Source of the DNA: Terriglobia bacterium
GTDB taxonomy: Bacteria; Acidobacteriota; Terriglobia; Terriglobales; Acidobacteriaceae
Direction: 5' to 3'
NCBI GenBank assembly: GCA_020073665.1
Contig: JAIQEU010000006.1
Coordinates: 248,001 to 312,000 of the forward strand
DNA: 64,000 nucleotides
The notes beneath the pieces were generated by a model, which saw only the letters and a list, made by a program, of their open reading frames with translations, was not told the origin of the DNA and made no database searches. Every line of letters begins with the position of its first letter. The stretch's first letter is position 1. The position numbers were made by a program, and so were the translations under genes. Shown in pieces: positions 46,157 to 54,662 of this stretch.

Positions 46157-46291
46157 ACACTCCTATATTTCCCCAGTTAAAGCAAACAGTTGACTTAGAA
46201 GCACTTACAAAATCTCGACGGCGTGTTAGGTGGTGCCAAACGAGGTTTTGCGAGGGTTCATAAGTTACATTTAGGTTACATTGGAGCTGGG

Positions 46292-47269
46292 GTGGCACGC
46301 CGCGACAAGTTCATCGACAACGCCCGAGGCAACTTCTTCATCGTGGAGAATGGGCTGATCGACCGCTACGCGGCGAAACTTACTCCGGTCGGCATCGCCG
46401 TTTATATCTGCCTTAAGCGGCACGCCAACACCAAGAACGGCGAGTCCTACGTCAGCGTGGAGAAGATCGGCGCCACCCTGGGCCTGGCTCGCCGCACCGC
46501 CTACCGCTATCTCTCCCTGCTCGATGAACTGCACCTGATCCGGGTGATCAAAACCAAAGAGCGAACCCTGTACTACGTCCTCGCGGTGCCTCGTGAAACG
46601 CCCGTACCCGAGGGCCCCACCTTGTTCGACGACGTACCTCCGGAGTCACTAACTGCGACACCTCCGGCGGAGCCTGGTGCTGTGCCGCTACAGATACTCA
46701 GTGCCGCTACAGGCACAGGTCGTGCCTCTGGAGGCACAAAGTGTGCCGCTACAGACACTCGCAATAAGGAAGAACAAGACTTATATCAAGACGATTTATC
46801 AAGACAAGAACCGAACCCCGAACTCGAACCTCCGGAGCCGGATGACCTTGAGGAAAAAAAGCGCGTCGCGGACTCGAAGGCAAAACGGCAGCGCATTGTC
46901 GAATTGATTACGGCCCTTTACCCGGTGGTGAACGAGGGCCGTGCGGTGTCCTGGAACGTCACCCGGGTGTTCCTGCTGTTGAAACAGGAAATCGAAAACC
47001 GTCCGGACTACACGGTGGACGTGTGGGACCTGTGCGTGCGCAACCGCTTGGAAAGTCTGGAATTCATTCCGCCGGCGCGAGACCCGGTGGAGTGGATTAC
47101 AAAGCTGTACCTGTTCGCAGGTGGGCCGCTCGACCGCTACGGTCGGCTTCCCGAGAGAGCGAGGACTAAAAACCATGCTGACGACGAGCACAAGCAGCGA
47201 CTCGACGACGAAGTCTACATTTCCCGCTTGCGGCGATCCGCACGAGCAGGTCATCGCAGCGCTGAATAA
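46292..47269 (+). CDS. Helix-turn-helix replication-initiator-like protein
   Basis: About 325 residues from the GTG at 46292, six bases after GGAG. The segment VARRDKFIDNARGNFFIVENG is followed by a winged HTH (LTPVGIAVYICLKRHANTKN, ESYVSVEKIGATLGLARRTA, YRYLSLLDELHLIRVIKTK) of the HTH_36 kind used in plasmid and phage replication proteins. A Pro/Thr-rich and acidic linker leads to a helical C-terminal part (RIVELITALYPVVNEGRAVS). The gene overlaps the next by 95 bases in another frame. No integrase is adjacent. It is probably a remnant of an element's replication or regulation module. Confidence 0.6.
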   Translation: MARRDKFIDNARGNFFIVENGLIDRYAAKLTPVGIAVYICLKRHANTKNGESYVSVEKIGATLGLARRTAYRYLSLLDELHLIRVIKTKERTLYYVLAVPRETPVPEGPTLFDDVPPESLTATPPAEPGAVPLQILSAATGTGRASGGTKCAATDTRNKEEQDLYQDDLSRQEPNPELEPPEPDDLEEKKRVADSKAKRQRIVELITALYPVVNEGRAVSWNVTRVFLLLKQEIENRPDYTVDVWDLCVRNRLESLEFIPPARDPVEWITKLYLFAGGPLDRYGRLPERARTKNHADDEHKQRLDDEVYISRLRRSARAGHRSAE

Positions 47270-48077
47270 TTTTTATTCCACGATGGGCAACAAGCCCGAA
47301 GTGCGGGGTTCGCTCGCCATCATGGCCGAGGTTTTGTGCAGCGAAGGGACGCCGGAGCAGATCCGCCTGGCCCTGGCCCGCTGCGCCAAAGAGTGCCGCT
47401 ATCCGGTTCGCATTCCCGACATCCTGCAGCGGATTCCCGGGCGCGAGGTGCCGCAAGCCGAGGCGCAAATGCGCCGGGCCTGGGATGACCTGATGGCCTT
47501 CGTGGCCAAGTACGTAAGCAACGACGTGCACGGCGCCTACGGTCCCGAACATGGCTGGTGGCCCAAGAGCTACCCGAAGCTATCCGTCCGGATAGTTGAT
47601 ACGGTACGGCGCACCGGGGGCTGGCGGGTTTACAAGCTGATGACGGCGGAAGACTTCCCGCACCAGCAGAAGCGGTTCTTTGAAGAGTTCCTCGCCTGGT
47701 CGTCAGTGCAGCAGACGCCGTCGATGGCATTGCCTGCGGCGGCAGCGCACCAACTGGGGCCTGGGGCGCTTACTCCAATCGAGTTCGGCAAACCCATACC
47801 GGCCATGGTGAACGATCAGCCGGGAAGGGTGGCTTTCTTCTCGAAAGAAGCCGCCGCAGCGTACGGGTTCAAGTTTGGGACTGGTCACCGGGAAGCCGCG
47901 CCGTCACCACAGTACGAGTCCCCGGTTGCTCAGGCAGGCAGCGGCAAAGCTGAGGGCAGCCGGCCAGTCCCGAAAACCGTTCCGGCGCCGTTGACCGACG
48001 CGCAGCGCCGGGACCGGAGGGCCATGCTTCGTCAGCAGGCGGCAGCAGCAGCCAAGAAATTCCCGCAACGCAGGTGA
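47175..48077 (+). CDS. Uncharacterised protein, possible phage/plasmid replication partner
   Basis: 300 residues from the ATG at 47175, preceded by a GAGGA motif. It starts within the upstream HTH gene and overlaps it by 95 bases in a different frame. The N-terminal half is helical (IAALNNFYSTMGNKPEVRGS, LALARCAKECRYPVRIPDIL), the centre has GGWRVYKLMTAEDFPHQQKR, a pattern resembling phage replication-partner proteins, and the C-terminus is low-complexity with many Pro and basic residues (QRRDRRAMLRQQAAAAAKKF). A replication role is inferred from its coupling to the HTH gene. No catalytic motif is visible. Confidence 0.5.
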   Translation: MLTTSTSSDSTTKSTFPACGDPHEQVIAALNNFYSTMGNKPEVRGSLAIMAEVLCSEGTPEQIRLALARCAKECRYPVRIPDILQRIPGREVPQAEAQMRRAWDDLMAFVAKYVSNDVHGAYGPEHGWWPKSYPKLSVRIVDTVRRTGGWRVYKLMTAEDFPHQQKRFFEEFLAWSSVQQTPSMALPAAAAHQLGPGALTPIEFGKPIPAMVNDQPGRVAFFSKEAAAAYGFKFGTGHREAAPSPQYESPVAQAGSGKAEGSRPVPKTVPAPLTDAQRRDRRAMLRQQAAAAAKKFPQRR

Positions 48078-48375: not shown

Positions 48376-48402
48376 TGCCCATCTCAATTCGGAGCCGTGG
48401 GC

Positions 48403-48654
48403 ATGACACCTTCCAAGCATTCCAGCAGCAAGCCTCCGATCCATGCGGCCCTCTACGCAAGGATCAGCACGCTTAACCACGGCCAAGACCCTGAGGTTCG
48501 GCTTGGTGAAGTACGCGAGTTCTGCCAACGGCGAGGCTTCACGATTGCCCACGAGTACGTCGTTCCGAGCACTAGACATCGAGTTCATTTCGGGCACGGC
48601 TCAGAGGGCGCTGGCTCCAGCCTGCCCAAAACCCTACTGCAACCCGCACCCTAA
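48403..48654 (+). pseudogene. Serine recombinase (resolvase) N-terminal remnant
   Basis: From ATG 48403 the frame reads MTPSKHSSSKPPIHAALYAR then STLNHGQDPEVRLGEVREFC and RRGFTIAHEYV, which matches the N-terminal catalytic domain of resolvase/invertase-type serine recombinases (ALYARIST with the Ser, QDPEVRL, HEYV). After HEYV the similarity stops and unrelated residues run to a stop at 48654. A full recombinase would be at least three times longer. It is a broken remnant of an element's integration or resolution system. Confidence 0.7.
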
Positions 48655-48742: not shown

Positions 48743-48794
48743 GCGATTACACTCACAACCCGGTCAATGAGTGTAATCGCGATGTTACGCCAAC
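48743..48794. repeat. Palindromic repeat, copy A
   Basis: The arms GCGATTACACTCA (48743-48755) and TGAGTGTAATCGC (48768-48780) are exact reverse complements around a 12-base loop CAACCCGGTCAA, then GATGTTACGCCAAC. The right arm and the sequence following it match copy B (51937), up to an ATCTAT block and a CGGGACT motif. The loop is a shortened reverse complement of the loop in B. It sits in the gap between the recombinase remnant (ends 48654) and the frameshifted gene (starts 49041). The rest of that gap holds no gene. Confidence 0.75.
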
Positions 48795-49905: not shown

Positions 49906-49996
49906 CAACTTTAAGTGCGGTAGTCCGGCTTCGCCGGTTTACAGTTGTAATCAGGCGACAGGGTAGTTCACTTGACCAAGGTTACGGGAGCGGCCT

Positions 49997-50821
49997 ATGA
50001 TTAAGCCGCATCCGAAGCCGCCCAATATCAAGCGGCTCCCAGTGAGCAAGCGTATGACGATTGCAGTAGGCATGTTTTGCAATAGTGGCGTTGTTTTCGG
50101 GGCTGACACGGAAGAGCAAATCGGGGACATGACCCGAAGAGTGCACAAAATTCCTACACTGTACCCCCCCTATCCAAGAGCGATGATTACTGGTTCTTGC
50201 TTGAACGGGCATCTGATGGACACGGCCGTGGAGCGGATTTTTGACGGATTAAAACAAGGCGGAGCGAAAGATGAGGGATCAATAATGGATCTCTTAGATC
50301 GAACGATGGTTGGGCTCTATCGTCGTGAGTTCAAGGCATACCCCGATCAAGGCAGTATCGCTATGCGATTGCTAGTGGCCGTAAAGCCTGATCACGAGAG
50401 CAAAGTTTACGCCTGGAGTATAGATTCCAGCGTAGTACGAAGAATGACATCGCCCCATGAAATCGTTGGGGTAGGTGAATTGGTCCAGTACATCGCAGAC
50501 CATCTGAATCAGGGTACGGAGTCATTAGCAAATGTGATTGTAGAAATGGTTCAGGTTTTATCGGCCGCTAAAGATCGGGTTCTAGGCGTCGGTGGAGATA
50601 GTTATGTGCATTGGATCTGCGATGACGGATCGATGGGGCAAAAAAATTTCAGTTTCTCGCCAGATACGGAGGAATTATACGAATATTTTCTGACGCATGG
50701 ACGCAGCTTGCTGATTGCAACTGGTACTGAGGAAATCACAGATGAACAGTTGGACAAACTCGGAGAAGAATTCGTGGCCGACTTAAAGTGGAAAAGGGCG
50801 CGGATGTTTGGCAAACGCTAA
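49997..50821 (+). CDS. Orphan proteasome-beta-like Ntn-hydrolase
   Basis: 274 residues from ATG 49997 after GGGAG. A 20-residue leader ends in KRM, followed by TIAVGMFCNSGVVFGADTEE, which matches a proteasome beta-subunit N-terminus: candidate nucleophile Thr21, Asp37 at the place of catalytic D17, and GSCLNGHLMDTAVERIF like the following helix. At the place of the catalytic lysine (K33) the sequence TRRVHKI has Arg48. The rest (VGGDSYVHWICDDG) is consistent with an Ntn fold. It is richer in A+T than its neighbours and converges on an IS1595-type transposase gene with overlapping stop codons. Neither a partner alpha-type subunit nor an unfoldase is present. Confidence 0.65.
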   Translation: MIKPHPKPPNIKRLPVSKRMTIAVGMFCNSGVVFGADTEEQIGDMTRRVHKIPTLYPPYPRAMITGSCLNGHLMDTAVERIFDGLKQGGAKDEGSIMDLLDRTMVGLYRREFKAYPDQGSIAMRLLVAVKPDHESKVYAWSIDSSVVRRMTSPHEIVGVGELVQYIADHLNQGTESLANVIVEMVQVLSAAKDRVLGVGGDSYVHWICDDGSMGQKNFSFSPDTEELYEYFLTHGRSLLIATGTEEITDEQLDKLGEEFVADLKWKRARMFGKR

Positions 50822-51732
50822 ATAGTTTTGGCGGCGGTTAAATCTTCAAACGTAAGGGGATCAGCGGTTACCATATGACGCAAGGTATCCAAGAACAAGG
50901 CTGGAGATTTCCGACGGTTGAACCGGAAAGTCATCTCGTCCAAGTATGCCGGGAGATGCTTCGCGCTGATTTTGTGCCAGCTACCAACGATTCCCCGCTT
51001 GAGCAAACTGAATGCCGATTCGATAGTGTTGGTATGGATGTCTCCATCGGCGTAAATGCCGGACTTGTGTTTGATTGTCTTGTGCTTCGCGGTCAATCCC
51101 GTTTTCTTCATAGCACTTGGATACGAAGTAAATTCATCAGTGACCATTACCTCAACGTCCTGACTGACGTTTTCTCCGATGTACTTCGCCAATGTGCCAG
51201 ACCTCGCATCGGCGGCATGGAAGAAGCGGAGATCGCCGCCACGTTGCCGGATGCCGATGACAACCTCTTTCGGAGTGCCGCGTCCGGGCTTGCTCCCGCG
51301 AGGGGGCCTGCCGCCTACATAGGTCTCATCCACTTCGACAGTACCGTCCATCATGGGCCGATCTACTTCTTTCATTGCGGCGCGGATGCGGTGACAGAGA
51401 TACCATGCAGTCTTGTAGGAACCTTTGTGCTGGCCCCAGATCGTCCGCTTGAGTTGGTGTGCGCTCATACCTTTCTTCGCTTCGCAGAGCAACAGAACGG
51501 CGATGAACCAAATGGGAAGCGGCAGATGAGAATCGTGAAACACCGTTCCACTGGTGACGGTGAACTGATATTGGCAACCAACACATTCATACCGGGAATA
51601 ATCTTTCAGGCGAGAGACGCGAGTGTCATGGCAGCGCGGACATTCGATACCAGCGGGCCAACGCAAGCGTTCAAGCAATTCACGGCAGCGAACATCAGTC
51701 GAATAGAGCGTATTCACATCAGGGAGATTCAT
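50818..51732 (-). CDS. IS1595-family (ISXO2-like) DDE transposase
   Basis: A 304-residue transposase. It begins with a zinc-ribbon (ECPRCHDTRVSRL and YECVGCQYQFTV) and carries the DDE triad: VEVDETYVGGRPPRG, VMVTDEFTSYPSAM, and NTIESAFSLLKRGIVGSWHK. This is the IS1595 type. It is full-length with intact catalytic residues. Its stop (50818-50820) overlaps the stop of the Ntn-hydrolase gene, and its ATG overlaps the start of a 47-codon gene on the other strand. I did not find convincing terminal inverted repeats near its 3' end, so the IS boundaries are unclear. Confidence 0.85.
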   Translation of the reverse strand: MNLPDVNTLYSTDVRCRELLERLRWPAGIECPRCHDTRVSRLKDYSRYECVGCQYQFTVTSGTVFHDSHLPLPIWFIAVLLLCEAKKGMSAHQLKRTIWGQHKGSYKTAWYLCHRIRAAMKEVDRPMMDGTVEVDETYVGGRPPRGSKPGRGTPKEVVIGIRQRGGDLRFFHAADARSGTLAKYIGENVSQDVEVMVTDEFTSYPSAMKKTGLTAKHKTIKHKSGIYADGDIHTNTIESAFSLLKRGIVGSWHKISAKHLPAYLDEMTFRFNRRKSPALFLDTLRHMVTADPLTFEDLTAAKTI

Positions 51733-51874
51733 GACAGAACCTCATAAACCGAAGTCGCCACTACAGCGGATACCGACACGGAAACTGCTGGCCGGGATAA
51801 AGAAAGACTTGCATCGGATGCTAGATTCCGGAGAGATTCGGAACCTAACCAAACGCAAGAAACAAAAGGAGTAA
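51731..51874 (+). CDS. 47-residue basic protein, divergent from the transposase
   Basis: A short open frame beginning at ATG 51731 (in CATG, shared with the transposase start on the other strand) and preceded by GGGAGA. It encodes a very basic peptide (MTEPHKPKSPLQRIPTRKLL, AGIKKDLHRMLDSGEIRNLT, then KRKKQKE). It ends at 51874. The overlap of two starts, each with a ribosome-binding-like sequence, suggests a real tiny partner gene of the IS. Too short for homology claims; chance remains possible. Confidence 0.4.
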   Translation: MTEPHKPKSPLQRIPTRKLLAGIKKDLHRMLDSGEIRNLTKRKKQKE

Positions 51875-51936
51875 AGGCAACCATGCATAGATATTACCTT
51901 AACCGTTACCCTTTGTCAAGTGAATAATCATGTTAG

Positions 51937-51997
51937 GCGATTACACTCATTGACCCCGGCCAGAGGGTTTTGAGTGTAATCGCGATGTTTCGCCAAC
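51937..51997. repeat. Palindromic repeat, copy B
   Basis: Arms GCGATTACACTCA (51937-51949) and TGAGTGTAATCGC (51971-51983) flank a 21-base loop TTGACCCCGGCCAGAGGG plus TTT, and the right arm continues GATGTTTCGCCAAC. Further sequence shared with copy A follows (ATCTATTT, CGGGACT). The repeat lies in the 350-base gap 51875-52224 between the tiny gene at 51731 and the small secreted gene at 52225. The rest of that gap has no supported gene. Confidence 0.8.
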
Positions 51998-52674: not shown

Positions 52675-54213
52675 ATGAACAACACACTGAAAACGACCCT
52701 GGGCGCGTCTTTGCTTTTGGCCCTCCTCCTTTTGTTGCCTGGTGTGGTCAATGCGCACACGCAGAAAGCAATCACGGTCCACGGAACCGATACCTATCCC
52801 CAAGACGTGACGGCCGTTCAGCTGGCATTGAATCAGTATGACGTCGTCACTCTGAGCGGAACTTTCAATTTTGGCCAAGCGGTTTTTGGCGTGGACTTGG
52901 ACACGGGCCAGATCACCGGCACCCCTGCGGGCATCGTCTTTATGACGCGGCCCAACGTTGTTCTCCAGGCCGACGCGAAGACAGGAGCCAGTATCGTTGG
53001 CGGGGGAGCGCCGTTCTCTTCCGAGTACTTCTACGTCTGGCCGGTCATCGGCATCACGGCACCGGACGTTACCCTACGCGGCTTGGGCATGTCCGGCTCG
53101 CCGGACACGGGAATCTTCTTCCTGGGCAATCCACAGACGGCAGCCGGCAAGAAGTTAACAATCGAAGCGAACGCCATTTCCGCCGACTTCACGGCGATTT
53201 ACCTGAGGTACACCGGCGGCCTGCGGGCCATCGTGAACCGCAACCAGCTCATTGCCCCGAATACTGCGGTGCTGTTTGCCACTCCTCTCGTAGTCGAATG
53301 GAGTGGTTACACGCTCGACGCGAATGGGGAACTGGTTCCCGGCAAGGGCTCCGTCGAGATTACAAAGAACGACATTTCAGCGCAAAACCAAAACGTCCCA
53401 AACGGCATTTTTGTCTGGGGCTGGCGGGTTGGAGCCTGGGCAGGGTCTCACCTTCCTGCGGATTGGGGAGACAACGGTCCGATTACGATCAGCGGAAACA
53501 CCCTCACCATGGACTGCATGGACATGGTCTGTTCGGCCATAGCGGTGGGCGGGAGTCTGCATGGCGTGAATCATGTCCAGGTTGTCAACAATACCATCAA
53601 GGGCGCCGCTGGTGCCGGTATAGACAAGTGGCCGTATGGGCACGACAACCTGATTGCGTGGAACAATCTCAAGGAATTAACCACAACCTACGAGCAGCTC
53701 GGGGTGATGGCGCGCAGGACGACAGTCGGTTACAACCTCCTGGGTCCCGTGATGTTTGCGCCGGCATTGTGGATGGTGTCGATTAACTGGCACCCCTCTC
53801 CTGACCTCTACGACACTCCGATGCCGTTGCCCACTGAGTACTGCCTCACCTTTGGGAACGACTATCGCCTCACCGGACTGCCGGGTTGGCCGATGGGAGG
53901 GGGCGCAATCATGCTCAACTCCGAAGCCGACGCGGGATGGTACACGGGCCAAGGCACCGAAGTTCGCTACAACTTCATCGCTGAAATCGGAAAATTCCCC
54001 AACGGCACTGGACCGAACGAACAGGTTTACCTCTGGCTCGGAGACGAGCCGCTGATGGTCCACGACAACTGGATCCTTGGCTTGTCACAAGCCAGTGGTG
54101 TTAGTGGCTACGGCGCACAGATCTCCGGCAAGCCATTACGACCGATGGGCGCCCAAGAAAGGTTGCAGCGCCTACAGGATCAGCTTGGGAAAGGGACACC
54201 TCGGCACCGGTAA
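52675..54213 (+). CDS. Secreted right-handed parallel beta-helix protein
   Basis: A 512-residue protein with signal peptide (TLKTTLGASLLLALLLLLPG) and a stack of beta-helix coils, with phrases such as ITISGNTLTMDCMDMVCSAI, VNHVQVVNNTIKGAAGAGID and GSVEITKNDISAQNQNVPNG. This is the parallel beta-helix fold of many carbohydrate-active and surface proteins. No pectate-lyase-type catalytic set could be identified by eye. It is the last gene of the island-like stretch and is followed by a hairpin terminator at 54315. The start at 52675 follows AGGTTGAACC. Confidence 0.75.
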   Translation: MNNTLKTTLGASLLLALLLLLPGVVNAHTQKAITVHGTDTYPQDVTAVQLALNQYDVVTLSGTFNFGQAVFGVDLDTGQITGTPAGIVFMTRPNVVLQADAKTGASIVGGGAPFSSEYFYVWPVIGITAPDVTLRGLGMSGSPDTGIFFLGNPQTAAGKKLTIEANAISADFTAIYLRYTGGLRAIVNRNQLIAPNTAVLFATPLVVEWSGYTLDANGELVPGKGSVEITKNDISAQNQNVPNGIFVWGWRVGAWAGSHLPADWGDNGPITISGNTLTMDCMDMVCSAIAVGGSLHGVNHVQVVNNTIKGAAGAGIDKWPYGHDNLIAWNNLKELTTTYEQLGVMARRTTVGYNLLGPVMFAPALWMVSINWHPSPDLYDTPMPLPTEYCLTFGNDYRLTGLPGWPMGGGAIMLNSEADAGWYTGQGTEVRYNFIAEIGKFPNGTGPNEQVYLWLGDEPLMVHDNWILGLSQASGVSGYGAQISGKPLRPMGAQERLQRLQDQLGKGTPRHR

Positions 54214-54335: not shown

Positions 54336-54383
54336 TTCTCTGTTGCTCACAGACGGTGGTTGCACGGTAGTTGACGTAATCAG

Positions 54384-54431
54384 GCGATTACACTCATTGA
54401 CCCCGTCCGGGAGGGTTTTGGGTGTAATGGC
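54384..54431. repeat. Palindromic repeat, copy C
   Basis: Left arm GCGATTACACTCA (54384-54396) as in A and B. Right arm TGGGTGTAATGGC (54419-54431) has two changes (G for A, G for C), with loop TTGACCCCGTCCGGGAGG plus GTTT as in B. The preceding GTAATCAGGCGA (54376-54387) also occurs at 49947-49958. The copy is degenerate at one end. Confidence 0.75.
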
Positions 54432-54662
54432 GATGCTACGTCAATAAGCCAAGAACGTGCTCGACATTGCAACAAGTGAACTGCTGCGACGTAGCTAGGT
54501 TTTCGACGCTCGGTGGCTAAAGACTCGCTCGGGAATTGCAATTGCTTCTGCTGGACGACGAGGGTTGTAGCGTATGCGGAAATCACACCGCTCAGACAGA
54601 TAGTCTACTTTGCTCTGTACGAGCTGCTTATCCGAAAGACGGCAGCCTAGGTTTGCCCGGGT

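Follow-up and report, generated by a model that had tools for sequence, protein, structure and literature searches.

The proteasome-like Ntn-hydrolase gene found in the 64-kb stretch of Terriglobia DNA analysed here (the window) is very probably cargo of a transporter insertion sequence (tIS) of the IS1595 family, and encodes a protein with an intact catalytic site. Actual proteolysis by an assembled particle seems fairly likely. In the proposed scheme, translation would begin at the ATG at position 50054, methionine aminopeptidase would remove the initiator Met, and the exposed Thr1 would act as nucleophile together with Asp17 and Lys33. Subunits would assemble into a ring or an Anbu-like helix, and peptides or unfolded proteins could be hydrolysed without a dedicated unfoldase. 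The cargo would persist through some advantage to the element or to its host, a stability- or defence-type role being one candidate. The open reading frame itself, at 49997-50821 on the + strand, is confirmed; it specifies 274 amino acids and includes MTIAVGMFCNSGVVFGADTEE. Its coding part has a G+C content of 48.0%, compared with 59.3% for the window, which agrees with the earlier description of the gene as A+T-rich.

The element extends from 49959 to 51932 (1974 bp) and encloses the genes of the protease and of a transposase. The latter (50818-51732, - strand) encodes an IS1595-family protein with a zinc ribbon and a DDE domain (Pfam PF12762, E 2.3e-30, and PF12760, E 8.8e-12); it is convergent with the protease gene and overlaps its end. 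The longest inverted repeat around the protease gene pairs 49946-49984 with 51907-51945, and the end scan sets the ends at 49959 and 51932. Accordingly, the left terminal inverted repeat is placed at 49959-49986 (+ strand) and the right one, defined by the inverted repeat and the end scan, at 51905-51932 (- strand), with matches at 20 of 28 positions. Their common core, TTCACTTGACNAAGG, is exact at both ends and occurs nowhere else in the 5.4-Mb genome at up to one mismatch, while a reversed control pattern has four genome matches at the same threshold. Immediately outside lie the two copies of an 8-bp target-site duplication, TCAGGCGA on the left (49951-49958) and TTAGGCGA on the right (51933-51940), which agree at seven of eight positions. 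Target duplications of 8 bp are typical of the IS1595 family. The DDE transposase with its zinc ribbon, the terminal inverted repeats and the target duplication (7/8) together identify the element as a member of this family, and its G+C content is 50.4%, again compared with 59.3% for the window. As annotated here, both genes are thus flanked by inverted repeats that match each other and, outside these, by an 8-bp target duplication. The original prediction had placed the protease in an island beside an IS1595 element: an IS1595-type transposase does adjoin it, but the gene lies inside the element, between its ends.

When joined, the flanks of the element resemble a dispersed palindromic repeat of the host which is intact near 54370-54440, and the right remainder of the interrupted repeat occupies 51941-51983. 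Copies with the arms GCGATTACACTCA and TGAGTGTAATCGC are located at 48743-48780, 51937-51983 and 54384-54431. The 21-base core of the repeat, GTAATCAGGCGATTACACTCA, has 57 copies in the genome at up to two mismatches, compared with none for the reversed control. Judged from these sequences, insertion of the element broke one copy of the host repeat, and the intact copies are paralogous empty sites. A related element in another genome (L132) occupies the identical position in this palindromic repeat and has a copy of TCAGGCGA at either side. The preference for palindromic targets is 4.5/12 matches versus 3.2 for IS1595-type ends (500-shuffle maximum 4.3; 21 elements), counts which are not independent because several represent the same repeat in different genomes, and 2.7 versus 3.2 for IS1-type ends (12 elements). 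Because the window element is single-copy and its duplication carries one mismatch, recent movement of this particular copy would be conjecture. The repeats near 51937-51983 and 54384-54431 were also considered as further element ends and were rejected, as they belong to the dispersed palindromic host repeat. The surroundings include a 512-residue open reading frame with a signal-like start (52675-54213), located between the palindromic repeat copies at 51971 and 54396. Upstream of the element, within 46223-48077 and 48397-48654, are found a helix-turn-helix protein (PF13730), an overlapping open reading frame without Pfam match, and a short one, also without Pfam match, whose sequence looks by eye like the beginning of a serine recombinase.

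Searched alone, the window protein has no Pfam match at E<=1, and a sequence search of the PDB with it finds no proteasome chain. The proteasome likeness noticed in the original prediction is therefore beyond the reach of single-sequence searches. Family comparisons are based on a profile from 8 members (A1), a set of 19 sequences (A2) and a profile from 27 members (A3). With the host genome counted, single-sequence searches find matches in 5 of 41 near genomes and in 6 of 396 genomes of the phylum, the latter including G208, whose match (L009, E 9e-4) was later left out since the motif was absent when it was read. The A1 profile has one match in the host genome and matches 63 of 398 genomes of the same family (host counted), a sporadic distribution. 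A DNA pattern search yields 53 stretches in named genomes, 40 of them Acidobacteriota by title; for the remaining 13, which come from other groups, agreement with the family profile is only weak (E 4e-10 to 0.05). No match to the window protease was found by tblastn in phage and plasmid records, and a single-protein scan of viral contigs confirmed no member. The DNA pattern finds four stretches in viral contigs, two of which (L041 and L043) are clear members, each with an adjoining IS1-like transposase. In PHROGs, 2 of 27 members weakly match an HslV-family model and one matches a virion protein.

The same protease-in-IS arrangement, as read from the sequences of its relatives, recurs with two transposase families. 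The comparison covers 61 Ntn loci, that is, the window and 60 loci fetched from the A1 family search regardless of context; rows that were weak, split or repeated were not taken, nor was the row of the window itself. A transposase lies at most 1.5 kb away in 42 of these loci, 25 being of IS1595 type and 17 IS1-like. When about 4 kb were scanned, there were 43 transposase matches at distances up to 1.5 kb but not one from 2 kb outwards. Complete elements, with both ends and a duplication, were identified in 28 of the 61 loci, the duplication being exact in 27 and carrying one mismatch in the window. Run on 94 loci, an automatic end scan had 35 hits, compared with none in a control with the downstream side reversed. 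Two of these hits (L064 and L087) look like chance matches (18/28, one mismatch) in distant relatives without transposase.

Sister elements without the window Ntn family carry other genes in the corresponding position. Twenty places were fetched whose IS1595 transposases are 51-72% identical to that of the window and which lack a match to the window Ntn family. Acceptable ends were found in 13, of which 12 have exact duplications and one (L206) a duplication with one mismatch; six have no end pair, and L208 was not counted, because its ends differ from the rest (17/28, with a mismatch). A second, divergent Ntn family is carried by four of the 13 elements (L192, L193, L195 and L198). Eight others (L197, L199, L200, L202, L206, L207, L210 and L211; L202 lies on contig C40 of the host genome itself) encode putative membrane proteins with one to three hydrophobic segments, and the cargo of L205 was left unassigned. 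Membrane cargo was called with a hydropathy window; since this picks out one segment in the Ntn cargo of L192 and L198 as well, the single-segment calls (L199, L207 and L211) are weak. The second Ntn family, also represented in one IS1-like element (L218), is related to the first by profile comparison (E 7.9e-11) and aligns with a proteasome beta subunit (E 3.2e-8). Its five members all keep the Asp and the Lys, and position 1 is Thr in four and Ser in one; neither the L198 protein nor a fragment of that of L218 matches a Pfam family.

For the IS1-like transposases, 20 places were also fetched and searched for ends beginning GGTA; complete ends were present in 11 and none were found in nine. 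Pfam matches among their cargo include an SDH-type protease (L228; a further SDH match in L212, at 28.2 bits, is below the cut-off of 31.3), a Clp protease adjoining the second-family Ntn gene (L218), an M78 peptidase (L215), SocA/Panacea (L225), NYN and DUF488 (L217) and an nSTAND/AAA ATPase (L223). Several of the IS1-like elements (L212-L231) encode, in addition, a small basic protein with the pattern GGKxR...AAKAARARW, noticed by eye. By position, the window protease fits the definition of a transporter IS, in which a passenger gene lies between the ends. It would have no role in the transposition reaction itself, given that its place in sister elements is taken by other cargo.

A narrower form of the cargo reading is that the protease serves in defence or addiction, protecting the cell that bears the element or punishing its loss. 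A defence- or stability-type role can be entertained because some IS1-like sisters carry genes of the peptidase, SocA-like, NYN and STAND types, with M78, Clp, SDH-type and DUF488 genes among them, and the sporadic distribution among the genomes of the family would be in keeping with it. On the other side, PADLOC has no match for the 8 A1 members or for two members scanned singly, no toxin partner is recognised in the window element, and the cargo list draws on 11 complete elements out of the 20 places fetched. Such a role is tenable though on balance doubtful.

Alternatively, the protease could be an element-intrinsic regulator of transposition, which might, for example, degrade the transposase or disassemble the transposase-DNA complex. 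ClpXP acts in this way on the MuA transposase-DNA complex. The genes are tightly adjacent and the transposase is mostly convergent and downstream of the Ntn gene (32 of 42 loci), an arrangement which would suit a regulator. Moreover, transposase type is clustered on the Ntn tree, with 11 changes compared with shuffled means of 18.5-18.9; shuffles as low number 0 and 1 of 500. This tree is a quick one of 67 members, 55 of them labelled, with several long branches. Against a regulator, there are sister elements of both the IS1595 and the IS1-like type, with matched ends, which hold other cargo and lack the window Ntn family; this Ntn family also switches between two transposase families, at least three of the changes on the tree being forced by starred branches. 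A regulatory function is thus improbable, and the protease is better regarded as cargo.

It is more improbable still that the gene is an ordinary chromosomal Ntn hydrolase with IS neighbours by chance. In 13 of the 61 loci there is no sign of an element: a transposase within 1.5 kb, an upstream end motif and a pair of ends are all lacking. Contig ends truncate some of these loci, but others, such as L102, L104 and L109, have about 5 kb on each side. Chance proximity is contradicted by the ends and duplications, between which both genes lie in the window and in 26 other loci; in one more case, a 1411-bp element without transposase (L152), they enclose the Ntn gene by itself. It is also contradicted by the upstream end motif: 36 of 61 loci have one of three motifs (at most 3 mismatches) in the 320 bp or so upstream, compared with 0 of 53 control stretches further upstream.

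The catalytic site was examined in 59 aligned loci which were not chosen on the residues concerned (open protein of at least 190 residues, near-copies removed). In the numbering of the open reading frame, Thr1 of the window protein is residue 21, Asp17 is residue 37 and the equivalent of Lys33 is residue 51, so that the Thr1/Ser1, Asp17 and Lys33 triad of proteasome-like Ntn hydrolases is complete. Among rows with a letter, position 1 is Thr in 52 of 53 and Ser in one, and there is no exception to Asp at the Asp17 equivalent (56 of 56) or to Lys at the Lys33 equivalent (57 of 57). At the Gly47 equivalent, the profile alignment has Gly in no more than 36 of 58 rows, yet this column is invariant in A2. 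The invariant columns of A1 include T21, D37, K51 and G66 of the window protein, and in the 19 sequences of A2 the corresponding D, K and G columns do not vary either. Alignment of A3 with yeast beta2 places profile position 1 on Thr1 and the conserved Lys on Lys33. The original prediction had assigned the Lys33 position to Arg48; the conserved Lys is in fact residue 51, and counting falls on Arg48 because Asp17 and the catalytic Lys are two residues closer together than they are in yeast beta2. The idea derived from it, that the protein is an inactive, alpha-type or structural relative which has lost the catalytic Lys, is scarcely credible: Arg48 does sit about where a count from other proteasome subunits places residue 33, but Lys51 occupies the Lys33 column of yeast beta2, invariant among the loci, and T1 and D17 are both retained.

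The family profile and the predicted fold bear out the assignment to the proteasome-type Ntn hydrolases, and the relatives that were found conserve Thr21. An AlphaFold2 model of the window protein starting from Thr1 (pLDDT 90.7, pTM 0.84) has an Ntn fold with long C-terminal helices. Its best PDB match in Foldseek is Anbu (E 2.7e-11, identity about 15%), which is also the best match in VIA (Z 23.6 over an alignment of 216 residues that pairs model residue 1 with chain residue 1). The 20S subunits come next (VIA Z about 22), and the matches listed are Anbu and 20S chains with Z from 21.6 to 23.6. Anbu (PDB 5nyw, 5nyg, 5nyj) is therefore the closest structural match and the model shares its fold, although sequence identity is only about 15% and the window protease is IS-borne. 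In the profile searches, A1 matches Anbu 5nyj at E 0.0029, more weakly than many 20S subunits, and A3 matches 239 PDB sequences at E<=0.01, with proteasome subunits making up all of the 60 matches listed. NCBIfam matches of the 27 members are archaeal proteasome models, none named Anbu, in a collection that may hold no Anbu model. The family resembles 20S beta subunits and HslV in its profile matches and in the alignment of Thr1 and Lys33 with yeast beta2; at E<=0.01, Pfam PF00227 matches 19 of the 27 members, whereas the window protein itself has no match. Taken from sequence and model, the cargo retains the catalytic residues of a proteasome-type threonine protease in a predicted Anbu-like fold.

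No partner subunit or unfoldase is recognised in the element, as originally predicted; besides the Ntn gene it holds only the transposase gene, with no hslU next to the protease. The sole PF00227 match in the host genome is on contig C11 (L242, L243), where it adjoins a full-length hslU (668.8 bits). The conventional HslUV pair is thus a separate locus, because the PF00227 gene and hslU adjoin each other on another contig. Host HslU may act in trans on the IS-borne protein. Conventional 20S alpha and beta subunits were not found in the host genome with PF00227, a search which a divergent partner would escape too.

Orphan proteasome homologues are numerous. A survey by Fuchs, Alva and Lupas (2021; PMC8665760) distinguishes 22 subfamilies, of which two, PPH and AAH, are reported to be spread by phages; for the 22 groups its main text reports no genomic contexts suggestive of a specific function, and the terms 'transpos', 'insertion sequence' and 'Acidobacteria' are absent from it. 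The window family, which may itself belong to one of these groups (PMI or WPH, for example), is like those homologues in being an orphan proteasome-like protein without known unfoldase; what is added is an informative context, namely as IS cargo. The transporter IS, an IS with a passenger gene, is described in PMC3129680 and PMC7986276, which both cite Siguier et al. 2009 on IS1595. The elements examined here correspond to this description for the IS1595 family; they differ in that the cargo is a proteasome-like protease which recurs across two transposase families. The main text of a study of 24 Acidobacteria genomes (PMC5900883) mentions no proteasome, IS1595 or passenger, and no paper describing an IS with a proteasome homologue as cargo came up in a literature search which lay mostly outside subscription journals and preprints. 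Each half has precedents, ISs with cargo on one side and orphan proteasome homologues on the other; their combination, for which no report was found, is a known fold in a new vehicle. With one orphan family identified as mobile cargo of small ISs, and a second Ntn family and other peptidases present in sister elements, its genomic setting becomes open to test, and the question shifts to what a 2-kb jumping gene gains by carrying a protease.

The start of the protein was compared across the same 61 loci, of which eight are unscorable; of the remaining 53, 51 were scored by script and two (L123 and L160, one codon off) were corrected by eye. The codon directly before Thr21 is ATG, GTG or TTG in all 53, and an SD-like motif lies 5' of this Met-Thr start in 41. 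Most simply, the active protein would start Met-Thr at 50054, the proteasome-like Ntn hydrolase then being encoded at 50054-50821 (+ strand), as the residues, profile, fold and start-codon comparison suggest. The original prediction of an autoprocessed leader is not favoured, and self-cleavage need not be invoked because a start codon directly precedes Thr21 in every scorable relative. For the same reason, a free N-terminal Thr in the mature protein is likely. Propeptides are described in PMC8665760 as absent from homologues other than beta and HslV subunits.

The sequence upstream of this start is at odds with such a simple model. From an upstream ATG, an in-frame leader of 19 codons rich in Pro, Arg and Lys (49997-50053, + strand) precedes the Met-Thr start, and this frame stays open more often than chance would give: it runs for 20 codons without a stop in 44 of 53 loci, compared with 16 and 24 in the other frames and with a mean of 25.2 (maximum 34) in 200 mononucleotide shuffles. 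A second upstream in-frame start with an SD-like motif is present in only 12 of the 53. Between close pairs, changes in the leader number 192 at third positions versus 160 and 147 at positions 1 and 2, a weak excess, and 72 of 309 changed codons are synonymous, indicating little constraint in 27 pairs which are not independent. A per-position comparison included loci selected for RTG and was not used as evidence. A translated leader, or a second, longer form of the protein, is possible. One bolder proposal, which has little likelihood, is that the ISs of soil Acidobacteriota are a mobile reservoir of proteases, proteasome-like and other, which serve the element (in defence, stabilisation or rival control), and that tandem in-frame starts yield alpha-like and beta-like subunits. 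If this were true, an N-terminally extended alpha-like form and a Thr1-active beta-like form would constitute a two-subunit proteasome within one 0.8-kb cargo gene. By eye, the leaders resemble proline-rich antimicrobial peptides, and in a number of loci they end with an RLPxRK-like string right before the Met-Thr start.
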